Positions 11,972 through 63,670 of a stretch of DNA of 64,000 bases are shown here, piece by piece; the first letter of the stretch is position 1; each line of letters opens with the position of its first letter. This stretch comes from Saccharopolyspora gloriosae (GTDB lineage: Bacteria > Actinomycetota > Actinomycetes > Mycobacteriales > Pseudonocardiaceae), in NCBI RefSeq assembly GCF_014203325.1, contig NZ_JACHIV010000001.1, forward strand, positions 4,651,501 through 4,715,500, in the 5' to 3' direction. The notes beneath the pieces were generated by a model. It had not been told where the DNA came from. It searched no databases and was given only the letters and a program-made list of their open reading frames with translations. A program made the translations under genes and the position numbers.

Positions 11972-12187
11972 GATCGGAGTTCCTTCCGGACCGGTGATCT
12001 CGGAACAGGAGTCTGCCCGAACGACGGCCGCGACCACCAGCGAATCCGCATCACACACCGCTTCGGACTTGGTCCCGCACGAACCTCGCGTTCCCCGTCC
12101 GGGTGATGCGTGCGACATCAACAAGTCTTCCGCCACGCCGACGATGATGGGGTCCGGATCAGCGCCGAACGCTAGATGTAGTGTGGC

Positions 12188-12400
12188 GCCCGCTGATGGT
12201 TCACCGGGATCGCCCGGTGTGACAACAGGGAACCCGGTGCGAGTCCGGGACTGCCCCGCAGCGGTGAACGGGAACGACCGCCGTCACCACCTCCAGAGGT
12301 GGTGCAGCACTGAGCGCGATGCTCGGGAAGCGACGGCCAGTAGGTCCGGCGTCGAGGACGCCGGGTGCCCGTGAGTCCGAAGACCTGCCATCGGTGCGCG
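12188..12400 (+). promoter_or_regulatory. Cobalamin (adenosylcobalamin) riboswitch upstream of nrdAB
   Basis: The leader contains the hallmark cobalamin-riboswitch blocks in order: GGTGTGACAACAGGGAA near 12219, GTGCGAGTCCGGGACTGCCC near 12238, GCAGCGGTGAACGGGAA, a variable stem (CCACCTC CAGA GAGGTGG), GGGAAGCGACGGCCAGTAGG near 12327 (B12 box region) and GTGAGTCCGAAGACCTGCC near 12373. It ends about 130 bases before the nrdA start. In Streptomyces, coenzyme B12 represses the oxygen-dependent nrdABS operon through such a riboswitch, so that B12 supply favours the B12-dependent class II reductase. The same logic is inferred here. Outer boundaries are approximate. Confidence 0.92.
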
Positions 12401-12528
12401 CACGAGGGGTGCGCGCCGTCCGGGACCTCGCGGGAGGGTCGCGGGACGAGCGGTGCCGTGCGCGCCGCGGTCCTCGCACGCTCCGAGCCGTCCCGGGCAG
12501 GTGTCCGAGCTTGCGAGGGAGAGAGCCA

Positions 12529-21853: not shown

Positions 21854-21902
21854 TCATCCACAAAGGACTGATCGACCTTTCGGAATGATCTTTTGATCGG
21901 TG

Positions 21903-22050
21903 CCTCGTCAGCGGCGGAGCCACTGAGCAGCGACCGGCTTGAGCAAGGTGACCACCGGCGGGTTCTCAGCGGCTTCCTCGCGAGGACAGCGATTTCGTGG
22001 CGTAGGGAGCTGATCCCGCAGCGAGGAAGCCGCTGAGGTTCCGCCGAGCG
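21903..22050 (+). repeat. Dispersed hairpin element, copy A (reduced)
   Basis: One of four intergenic copies. A perfect 17-bp stem is formed by CTCAGCGGCTTCCTCGC (21965-21981) and GCGAGGAAGCCGCTGAG (22021-22037), framed by GCGGGTT on the left and GTTCCGCC on the right as in the other copies. The inner hairpin is degraded (ATTTCGTGGCGTAGGGAGCTG). The upstream array of other copies is replaced by one hairpin TCAGCGGCGGAGCCACTGA (21908-21926) with a GGA triloop. It lies between the SIP gene and the heme oxygenase iron box and may act as the terminator of the SIP transcript. Confidence 0.8.
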
Positions 22051-22142
22051 ACCAGCTGCGCAGGTCGCCCTGAAAGGACTCCTTGTCAACGGCCGCGGGC
22101 GACCCTTGGCAGCCACCCCCTCCCCGTGTCACGATCTCCGAG

Positions 22143-25427: not shown

Positions 25428-25625
25428 TCCGGGTGGCGGAACCTCAGTGCCTTCCTCGCTGCGGGATCTTTTTCCCGAGTGGCTCCGCCACGAGGGAAAA
25501 AGCTGTCCTCGCGAGGAAGCAGCTGAGAACCCGCGGGTGAGGACTTTTCGACGTGGGCTATGTGCTTCGCACATACAGGCACGGCCTTCGGCCGCCAGGC
25601 ACGGCCTTCGGCCGCTGGCAGGGCA
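25428..25625 (-). repeat. Dispersed hairpin element, copy B (inverted orientation)
   Basis: The element lies in the opposite orientation to copies A, C and D. The stem arms CTCAGTGCCTTCCTCGC (25443-25459) and GCGAGGAAGCAGCTGAG (25511-25527) pair at 14 of 17 positions. The inner hairpin is intact: CTTTTTCCC/GGGAAAAAG arms around a GTGGC-GGA-GCCAC hairpin read on the minus strand. The mini-hairpin array follows: ATGTGC-GAA-GCACAT (25560-25574, minus strand) and two tandem CGGCC-GAA-GGCCG units (25582-25594 and 25602-25614). It starts shortly after the methyltransferase stop and may terminate its transcript. Confidence 0.85.
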
Positions 25626-34861: not shown

Positions 34862-35035
34862 CCCGCTTTGCGGCCGAAGGCCGTGCCTGTATGTGCGAAG
34901 CACATAGCCCACGTCCAAAAGCCGACCACCCGCGGGTTCTCAGGCGGTCTGTCGCGAGGACGGCTTTTTCCCTCGTGGCGGAGCCACTTGGGAAAAAGAT
35001 CCCGCAGCGACAGACCGCCTGAGGTTCCGCCACCC
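34862..35035 (+). repeat. Dispersed hairpin element, copy C (best preserved)
   Basis: The order of structures is CGGCC-GAA-GGCCG, then ATGTGC-GAA-GCACAT (34891-34905), then GCGGGTT and the main stem CTCAGGCGGTCTGTCGC (34939-34955) with GCGACAGACCGCCTGAG (35007-35023), perfect over 17 bp. Inside it is a second hairpin with arms CTTTTTCCC (34964-34972) and GGGAAAAAG (34990-34998) around GTGGC-GGA-GCCAC. The T5 run on both strands would suit a bidirectional terminator, and the copy lies exactly between convergent genes (DUF417 and iclR). Confidence 0.9.
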
Positions 35036-35066
35036 GACCACACGAGCAAAACGAGCCGTATAAAGC

Positions 35067-35861
35067 TCATTCCTCCAGGAAGCCGAGTTGGCCTGATAGT
35101 TCCTTGGCCGCGACCTTCATGGCTCCGACGACTTCGCGCATGCGCTTGCGGGAGAAGCGGTACGAGGGGCCGGAGGCGCTGAGGGCGGCGACCACTTCGC
35201 CGTCGTGGCGGTGCACGGCGACCGCTGCCGCGTTCAGGCCCAGTTCCAGTTCTTCGTAGCTGGTGGCGTAGCCGTCGCGCACGATGAGCTGGAATCCGCC
35301 GCGCAGCTCGGCCGCGTCGGTGACGGTGCGCGGGGTGTACTGCGCGAGGTCGCCGTCGAGCAGCACGTCCTGGTCGTCGACGGGCGCGTGCGCCAGCAGC
35401 ACTTTGCCGCTGGAGGTCGCGTGCAGCGGGGTGCGCTGGCCGACCCAGTTGTGCGCGGTCACGGAGGCGGTGCCGCGGGCCTGGCTGATGTTGATGGCCA
35501 CGTCGTCGTCGCGGACCGCGATGTTCACCGTCTCGCCGAGGTCGCCCGCGAGCGACTCGCAGAACGGGCGGCCGAGCCGGGAGAGGTCCATCCGGTCGGT
35601 GGCGGCACCGGCGAGCCGGACCACGCCGAAGCCGATGACGTACTTGCCGCGCTCCCCGAGCTGCTCGACGAGGCCGCGCGAGACGAGCACGCTGACCAAG
35701 CGGGAGGCGGTGGACTTGTGCACGCCGAGCTCGCCGGCGATTTCGGTGATTCCTGCTTCGCCGTGGCGTGCCAGCAGTTCCAGCACGCTCACCGCCCGGT
35801 CCACCGACTGCACTAGTGCGCCGGACCGTTCACCGTTGGGAGATCGTCCTGCGTTGACCAC
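35067..35861 (-). CDS. IclR-family transcriptional regulator, probable regulator of the sox/dmg catabolic genes
   Basis: A 264-residue IclR protein. The N-terminal winged helix (residues about 14-75) has VQSVDRAVSVLELLARHGEA, then TEIAGELGVHKSTASRLVSV. The C-terminal effector-binding domain includes TPLHATSSGKVLLAHAP and the late YATSYEELELGLNAAAVAV, family hallmarks. The start is GTG 35861. A palindrome GTTGC-N7-GCAAC lies 52 bases upstream of the gene, and two related sites sit in the divergent soxB/dmg promoter, which argues that this protein controls the sarcosine/dimethylglycine genes. The effector may be a betaine catabolite (inference). Confidence 0.9.
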   Translation of the reverse strand: MVNAGRSPNGERSGALVQSVDRAVSVLELLARHGEAGITEIAGELGVHKSTASRLVSVLVSRGLVEQLGERGKYVIGFGVVRLAGAATDRMDLSRLGRPFCESLAGDLGETVNIAVRDDDVAINISQARGTASVTAHNWVGQRTPLHATSSGKVLLAHAPVDDQDVLLDGDLAQYTPRTVTDAAELRGGFQLIVRDGYATSYEELELGLNAAAVAVHRHDGEVVAALSASGPSYRFSRKRMREVVGAMKVAAKELSGQLGFLEE

Positions 35862-63216: not shown

Positions 63217-63408
63217 ATGCCGGAACGACAGGTGCGGTTCGTCGGCGGACCGCTGGACGGGCGCGAACAGGGACTGCGCGATTCCGAGGCGGTGCACGGC
63301 CGTCTGCTCCGCCACGTCCACCTGCACGACGGCCCCAAGATCGAAACCTGCTACCGCCTCCACTACGCCCCCGACTCGGGCTGGGAATACCACTTCAACG
63401 GCCACTGA
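63217..63408 (+). CDS. Small hypothetical protein
   Basis: A 63-residue protein (MPERQVRFVGGPLDGREQGL onward, ending GWEYHFNGH). The VRFVGGPLDGRE start occurs in many short actinobacterial and phage proteins without known function. Charged and soluble, with several histidines. The start is ATG 63217; GTG 63211 is possible, and no clear ribosome binding site is present. Divergent from the helicase gene and followed directly by the hairpin repeat copy D. Confidence 0.65.
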   Translation: MPERQVRFVGGPLDGREQGLRDSEAVHGRLLRHVHLHDGPKIETCYRLHYAPDSGWEYHFNGH

Positions 63409-63432
63409 GCCGCAAACCCAACCCCTCCCCCG

Positions 63433-63670
63433 CCTGCTTTGCCGCCGAATGCAGTGCCTTGCGGCGAAGCCGTGCAGTTGGGCTGCGAAGCAAGCCTGCC
63501 TGGCGACCGAAGGTCGTGCCTGTATGTGCGAAGCACATAGCCCACGTCGAAAAGCCCTCACCCGCGGGTTCTCAGTGAGCCTCTCGCGAGGACAGCTTTT
63601 TCCCTCGTGGCGGAGCCACTCGGGAAAAAGATCCCGCAGCGAGAGGCTCACTGAGGTTCCGCTACCCGGA
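63433..63670 (+). repeat. Dispersed hairpin element, copy D (longest)
   Basis: The upstream array has four GAA-triloop mini-hairpins: GGC-GAA-GCC (63463-63471), TGC-GAA-GCA (63484-63492), CGACC-GAA-GGTCG (63504-63516) and ATGTGC-GAA-GCACAT (63524-63538). The main stem CTCAGTGAGCCTCTCGC (63571-63587) with GCGAGAGGCTCACTGAG (63639-63655) is perfect over 17 bp but differs in sequence from the other copies. The inner hairpin with CTTTTTCCC/GGGAAAAAG arms and GTGGC-GGA-GCCAC is intact. It lies between two genes of the same strand. Confidence 0.9.

Follow-up and report, generated by a model that had tools for sequence, protein, structure and literature searches.

Integron attC sites are read as a fold on one strand and combine fixed blocks with a stem of free sequence. 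Prokaryotic MITEs are short, non-autonomous, intergenic elements of high copy number, with a stable stem-loop, inverted ends and empty sites in relatives (excerpts of PMC10969869), while the GTAG/CGTC-tagged REPs, associated with RAYTs, are repetitive extragenic palindromes whose 20-40 nt hairpin carries the tag at its foot (PMC3733652, in part). It has long been asked how paired stems alter both sides at once with function retained. One proposal for such simultaneous change is template switching, for which the authors call the evidence circumstantial in the case of short stems (PMC8794818, in part). Its two footprints at inverted repeats, arm homogenisation and spacer inversion, are known from yeast genes and have been discussed for RNA hairpins (parts of PMC8604942 and PMC8794818).

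Here we describe a repeat first noticed in a window of 64,000 nt (the whole stretch of DNA analysed) of Saccharopolyspora gloriosae. On balance we think it probable that the repeat forms the palindromic core of a family of mobile elements in Pseudonocardiaceae, non-autonomous and MITE-like, and that its arms are kept matched by selection together with template switching. All the MITE features listed above recur here, and it is the imperfect terminal inverted repeats, present in one subset of copies, that make the element resemble a MITE. In contrast to MITEs as portrayed in those excerpts, it has several end types round a constant core and a stem that is free in sequence yet paired; no parent IS was found for it, target duplications were not established and it is not AT-rich. 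Compared with the REPs of PMC3733652 (in part) the element is longer and untagged, and no Y1 transposase was found in the four high-copy genomes. The template switching described in parts of PMC8604942 and PMC8794818 differs in that here it was observed repeatedly within a single dispersed repeat family of bacteria, in which a conserved mismatched loop serves as a built-in marker. With attC sites the element shares a one-strand fold, fixed blocks and a free stem. We found no published description among the top matches of searches of the open-licence literature for repeats, palindromes, MITEs or hairpins of Saccharopolyspora or its family, so that in the literature searched an abundant repeat of well-known actinomycetes appears to have gone undescribed. 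The element offers a natural system in which to examine how hairpins remain paired.

Core hairpin, copies in the window and distribution

The core is about 99 nt long. Its 5′ side consists of GCGG, a GTT/GTT loop, CTCAG, eight free bases (X) and TCGC; an asymmetric loop (GAGGACAGC vs. GATCCCGCA), an inner hairpin and the mirror sequence follow, closing with CTGAGGTTCCGC, and the foot is GCGG/CCGC. On the left the core is flanked by a module of type i (small hairpins of the GCGAAGC type) or type ii (with CAGCGGCGAAGCCGCTG), and on the right by a tail of about 36-45 bases. All four copies reported in the preliminary description, here A to D, were recovered, with cores within 5 bases of the positions first assigned to them. 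The 17-bp stem was exact in A, C and D and paired at 14 of 17 positions in B, the middle eight bases differing between copies just as had been claimed. None of 200 dinucleotide shuffles folded as well as any of the four copies (RNA folding of the element's + strand; z from -6.4 to -9.0). The two 12-base end motifs alone (≤2 mismatches) were not above chance in the window, while the combined pattern was.

Copy A has its core at 21958-22044 (+), with X = CGGCTTCC, exact arms and a shortened inner hairpin, the last in keeping with its earlier description as degraded. Its left module differs from the type i module of copy C. The core of copy B (25436-25534, -) carries X = CTGCTTCC / TGCCTTCC. It is probably a chimera of two X types, since each arm equals an X type that other copies of the genome have in perfect form (7 of the copies read for one type, 1 for the other). 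Its left module (25535-25600, -; outer limit approximate) is of type i with GCGAAGC-type small hairpins, a sequence that recurs in C, D and many other copies of the genome. At the orthologous site of the congener G137 the element is present with a different X in both arms and a different left module. Copy C comprises a type i left module (34862-34931, +), built from the small hairpins GGCCGAAGGCC and TATGTGCGAAGCACATA plus a linker and common to many genomic copies, a core (34932-35030, +) with X = GCGGTCTG and arms paired at 17 of 17, and a right tail (35031-35060, +) adjoining the 3′ end of a reading frame at 35067-35861 (-). Both the conserved GTT/GTT outer loop and the GAGGAC../GATCCCGCA inner loop are found in this core. 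Copy D has a type i left module with several small hairpins (63400-63563, +; outer limit approximate) and a core (63564-63662, +) with X = TGAGCCTC and 17 of 17 paired; at this site G137 has X = CGGCTTCC in both arms. The left modules of type i copies (e.g., 34862-34931 and 63400-63563) contain a variable number of repeated small hairpins, the turns of which are of the GCGAAGC and GCCGAAGGC types.

A search of related genomes, suggested in the preliminary description and made here with sequence patterns, returned matches in congeners and in the wider family. The 5′-half pattern (GGGTTCTCAG-N4..20-CGCGAGGA) matched 145 + 165 = 310 times in the 6.83-Mb genome of the window (G000), and both halves were present in 283 matches; the reversed controls gave 0 in each case. 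The element is thus four-copy within the window but not genome-wide. The five congeners gave 20, 18, 109, 202 and 109 5′-half matches, the two low counts belonging to G046 (20) and G079 (18), while G000, G120, G101 and G137 range from 109 to 310. In a sample of Pseudonocardiaceae the pattern occurred in 32 of 200 genomes and 13 of 46 genera; among the matches listed, full copies were found in Saccharopolyspora, Halosaccharopolyspora, Halopolyspora, Actinopolyspora, Sciscionella and Amycolatopsis bartoniae. Five of the listed matches outside these relatives (two Arthrobacter, SAR202, a Burkholderiaceae MAG and a Terriglobia MAG) lacked the 3′ half and were taken as chance. For a Mycobacterium locus and a Microbacterium locus matched by the pattern, the full-copy search gave none.

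Mobility, ends and flanking modules

The copies are mobile. For copy A, an insertion of about 207 bp (whole unit 21875-22083, +; ends approximate to several bases), the orthologous site is empty in all five congeners (G137, G120, G101, G046 and G079). Within a 344-kb stretch holding 20 copies, ten had aligned flanks ≤58 bp apart in G137 and/or G120, which leaves the congener without room for a copy; the remaining ones were present in both genomes, spanned a longer gap or were not comparable. Sites occupied in several species often differ in X, module or orientation. The objection anticipated earlier, that the four stems are unrelated terminators beside a short shared motif, is excluded: the copies share a 95-bp core and flanking modules, and relatives have empty sites. 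At one intergenic site the element lies in opposite orientations between species (G000 joined-stretch position 187904, L211; G137 185544, L234; G120 147700-148100, L236).

The unit of copy A ends with CCTTTCGGAATGATC on the left and GGTCGCCCTGAAAGGACTCCT on the right, which form imperfect terminal inverted repeats. The terminal motif TCCTTTCAGAATGA matched the genome 48 times with ≤2 mismatches, vs. 3 in the reversed control; one of the matches, with 2 mismatches, is G000:C1:4673375, i.e., window position 21875 at the left end of copy A. In one subset of copies inverted end pairs were seen, six with starts 202-215 bp apart and five pairs 55-116 bp apart. Ends of this first subset resemble AGGRGYCCTTTCAGAATGAYC, while those of a second subset, searched for within the stretches of sequence read, are different and resemble CTGYCTTTGATCTTG. 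As the terminal motifs vary between subsets, a single ordinary IS family cannot account for all copies. No transposase bearing these ends was found, and the 48 end matches included no free inverted pair at IS length; their only long combination spans 3.4 kb (3660418 +, 3663864 -), and one of its ends is already paired at 202 bp. A gene-bearing long version was likewise rejected, as none of the seven half matches examined showed a distant partner arm in the sequence inspected and the end search gave no free pair of that size. Comparison of filled and empty sites at ten loci did not fix a target duplication; several alignments were poor and the ends were blurred by decay.

Hundreds of intergenic palindromes would also be expected of REP elements mobilised by a RAYT (Y1) transposase. 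A search with PF01797 gave no match in the high-copy genomes G000, G120, G101 and G137 and matched only in the low-copy G046 and G079, and the 99-nt core has no GTAG foot; this origin is so improbable as to be close to negligible, and for the genome of the window as it stands mobility of this kind is refuted, though a transposase may have been lost in the past. Mobility by a reverse transcriptase was also rejected for that genome, PF00078 being absent from G000 and four congeners, with one match in G137. Under the MITE-like reading, a foreign transposase would act in trans.

Left and right modules could be classified in 143 of the 182 copies read (39 were unclassifiable), and 29 of the 143 have a mixed combination. 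In six copies (L159, L160, L169, L192, L216 and L020) the right side continues into a common stretch of about 160 bases that contains a CCGTGGAAG...CTTCCACG hairpin and repeats resembling CACACGCC. Two relatives that have kept the same inverted ends are shortened or damaged: one at L214:11798-11925, apparently without the core hairpin, and one at L192:5889-6106.

Pairing, covariation and strand polarity of the stem

We read 182 copies of the window's genome in full, a non-random sample in which some stretches were picked for known copies or loop variants. X is identical in both arms in 135 of them, differs by one base in 34 and by more, or in length, in 13. Among the 179 copies in which X has 9 bases in each arm, pairing holds in 95.3% of cells over the first eight X positions, vs. 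a mean of 55.4% and a maximum of 60.4% when the arms were shuffled among copies (1000 shuffles). We also aligned 45 copies (44 distinct), namely three from the window and 42 of 98 distinct outside rows, hand-picked for diversity; since copies were located by sequence patterns rather than by a covariance model, conservation of the blocks is partly built in and divergence is a lower bound. In this alignment 96.5% of 1319 cells pair, vs. 81.6% when shuffled and at most 50.1% when slid, and the covariation score is 0.408 (0.117 shuffled, ≤0.116 slid). The covariation is real: both partners vary at 15 of the 30 pairs, and covariation extends to the inner stem (6 of 7 pairs). The claim that the fold rather than the sequence is kept is borne out, with X cells pairing far above arm-shuffled controls and a stem that covaries across genera. 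That the fold is maintained holds for lineages but not for every copy, X being unmatched in 47 of the 182.

Five of the 13 copies unmatched by more than one base or in length look like chimeras, because both of their arms are different perfect X types of the same genome. Thirteen perfect X types were seen once each among the 182 copies, where independent double hits predict about 0.07 copies; ten lie one pair from a commoner type, two are one pair from each other and one is two pairs away. We take these as supporting evidence only, as regions of the genome that were not read may contain sisters of some of them.

The unpaired cells differ between lineages. Outside the window's genome and its nearest relative NFXS83, 45 G.T were counted on the + strand vs. 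3 A.C and 8 others, among 35 distinct copies whose X is 9 bases long in each arm (21 copies in which X has another length were excluded). These counts share ancestry, above all at stem position 4, which contributes 22 of the 45 and without which they are 23 G.T vs. 3 A.C; without the congener HNM0986 they are 38 vs. 3. From this excess the folded + strand, as RNA or single-stranded DNA, seems to be selected in these lineages. The favoured strand carries GCGGGTTCTCAG at its 5′ end. In the outer loop, G.T is kept in 43 and T.G in all of the 44 distinct aligned rows. Only the 3′ loop is a fair test of conservation, as the patterns required the 5′ loop and permitted two changes at the 3′ end; it is GTT in 53 of 56 copies of other lineages, a count whose search pattern leaves out AAC loops. 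In the window's genome the 34 one-base X mismatches comprise 11 G.U (G.T), 9 A.C and 14 transversions and show no wobble bias, so that no current selection on the fold can be seen there. The spectrum of these one-arm changes is close to that of conserved positions, which suggests that individual copies decay unhindered, and strong RNA selection on each own-genome copy is unsupported. Of the two causes offered in the preliminary description, selection on an RNA or cruciform gains from the cross-genus covariation and from the excess of G.T over A.C (45 vs. 3).

The wobble polarity would fit a + strand RNA, and the element could be a functional structured RNA (a 3′-end protector, terminator or small RNA) on mobile DNA, selected at host sites. 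No overlap with a called gene was seen for any of 142 cores. For the 136 flanked by a called gene on each side, the neighbours are convergent in 58 cases, tandem in 70 and divergent in 8, compared with 127, 358 and 156 for all gaps >60 bp (gene calls from a simple script; the background includes gaps holding the element); divergent gaps are thus avoided and convergent 3′ ends favoured (58 of 136), as such a role would predict. The absence of overlap and the rarity of divergent neighbours also speak for the MITE-like reading. Also in its favour, a native strong hairpin occurs in G137 and G120 where G000 carries the element (joined-stretch position 243723, L213, between two genes). Against it stand the ten of 20 copies in one stretch for which a congener has no room and the decay of own-genome copies without wobble bias. 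No Rfam 15 family reached its gathering score over the element in a search of the whole window, the low-threshold matches of copy C being four microRNA-type hairpins and one sRNA, far below the cut-offs; this copy, the one examined, has no promoter-like site and two terminator-like matches inside its stem. We regard a host function of this kind as rather unlikely. The same search placed a cobalamin riboswitch at 12180-12406 (+) of the window (90.3 bits vs. a gathering score of 31.5).

By analogy, the fold could also be a single-stranded DNA recombination site working like an integron attC. Fixed blocks in internal loops, a free stem, one favoured strand, a constant core and exchangeable flanking modules would suit such a site; on the other hand, the terminal inverted repeats of one subset point to double-stranded DNA transposition, and the orientation of the interior can flip, which would change the strand. 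We consider this very unlikely.

Under the MITE-like reading, recognition would be of the folded shape and of the fixed blocks GCGGGTTCTCAG, TCGCGAGGACAGC, GATCCCGCAGCGA and CTGAGGTTCCGC, and the letters of the intervening stem would drift because it has only to pair. Judging from the wobble polarity, lineages with a + strand that no longer folds would stop spreading or working. Mobility would then select the fold, which may serve mobility, a transcript, or both.

Copying between the arms

In six Saccharopolyspora genomes we searched for loops whose first base is not G. At the 3′ loop these were AAC in 19 copies and single-base variants in 10 (ten of 39 rows, unlike the element, were dropped as chance); at the 5′ loop they were AAC in 10, AGC in one and single-base variants in 11. 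AAC is the exact complement of GTT in the opposite arm. Deviant loops that retain the first-base G among the 182 own copies have single changes. In total, 24 copies from G000, G120 and G137 carry AAC or are inverted, on a scale of 768 normal 5′-half matches in the same six genomes: five in both loops, 14 in the 3′ loop only and 5 in the 5′ loop only, one-sided status being given as far as the patterns show. Where both loops are changed and the outer flanks are normally arranged, as in the five, the interior has been inverted. Sixteen of the 24 were read with their flanks and comprise five interior inversions and eleven one-sided conversions; they vary in X, interior and surroundings and so represent mostly separate events. 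Since the flank beyond the changed loop is normal in ten of the eleven one-sided copies, the copied tract is short; the tract is longer in the other, L201. Arm homogenisation and spacer inversion being the two footprints of template switching at inverted repeats (PMC8604942 and PMC8794818, both in part), the AAC loops and interior inversions are footprints of this process. The second cause offered earlier, regeneration of one arm from the other, therefore also receives support, from GTT loops turned into exactly AAC and from inverted interiors between intact arms.

These conversions and inversions, as well as the lack of wobble bias in the window's genome and the many transversion links between perfect X types, would be expected if the arms were alike through template switching and exchange between copies alone, the fold having no role. 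Yet copying alone would erase the 3′ GTT, which is kept in the other lineages (AAC copies lying outside the pattern of that count), and would not account for their ratio of G.T to A.C. A fold without any role is therefore quite unlikely.

In the reading that we favour, which combines selection with template switching, the arms would copy each other at the hairpin, as the footprints indicate, and two-sided changes would arise in one step. Exchange between copies would spread these changes and mix X types, interiors and flanking modules, in part as observed above. The ratio of transitions to transversions, 6:17 in two-arm vs. 20:14 in one-arm changes (p = 0.03), counts against it insofar as richness in transversions is not predicted by simple copying; saturation could produce the contrast, to which we give no weight for that reason. 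A conserved mismatched loop in hundreds of sister copies logs each copying event as a three-base change, and thus the rate, direction and tract length of copying could become measurable in wild bacteria.

A further idea concerns the host mismatch endonuclease NucS, which the element may exploit instead of a transposase of its own. The conserved loop presents adjacent G.T, T.T and T.G on the folded + strand, where a - strand hairpin would show A.C, A.A and C.A. NucS prefers G-T, G-G and T-T, with weaker or no activity on other mismatches, notably A-C (PMC8228993, in part), and a search found it in each of the six genomes of the genus. By cutting the hairpin once extruded, NucS would set off exchange, copying between the arms and spread, and the element would be linked to NucS-bearing bacteria. 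Drawn from loop composition, wobble polarity and the presence of NucS in six genomes, this is a guess to which we attach very little probability.

The inner hairpin may show similar events. At L081:6790-6888 its arms have been perfected (1 of 171 typed inner loops is of that form), and in L272 the inner loop is inverted, which may be the same kind of event.
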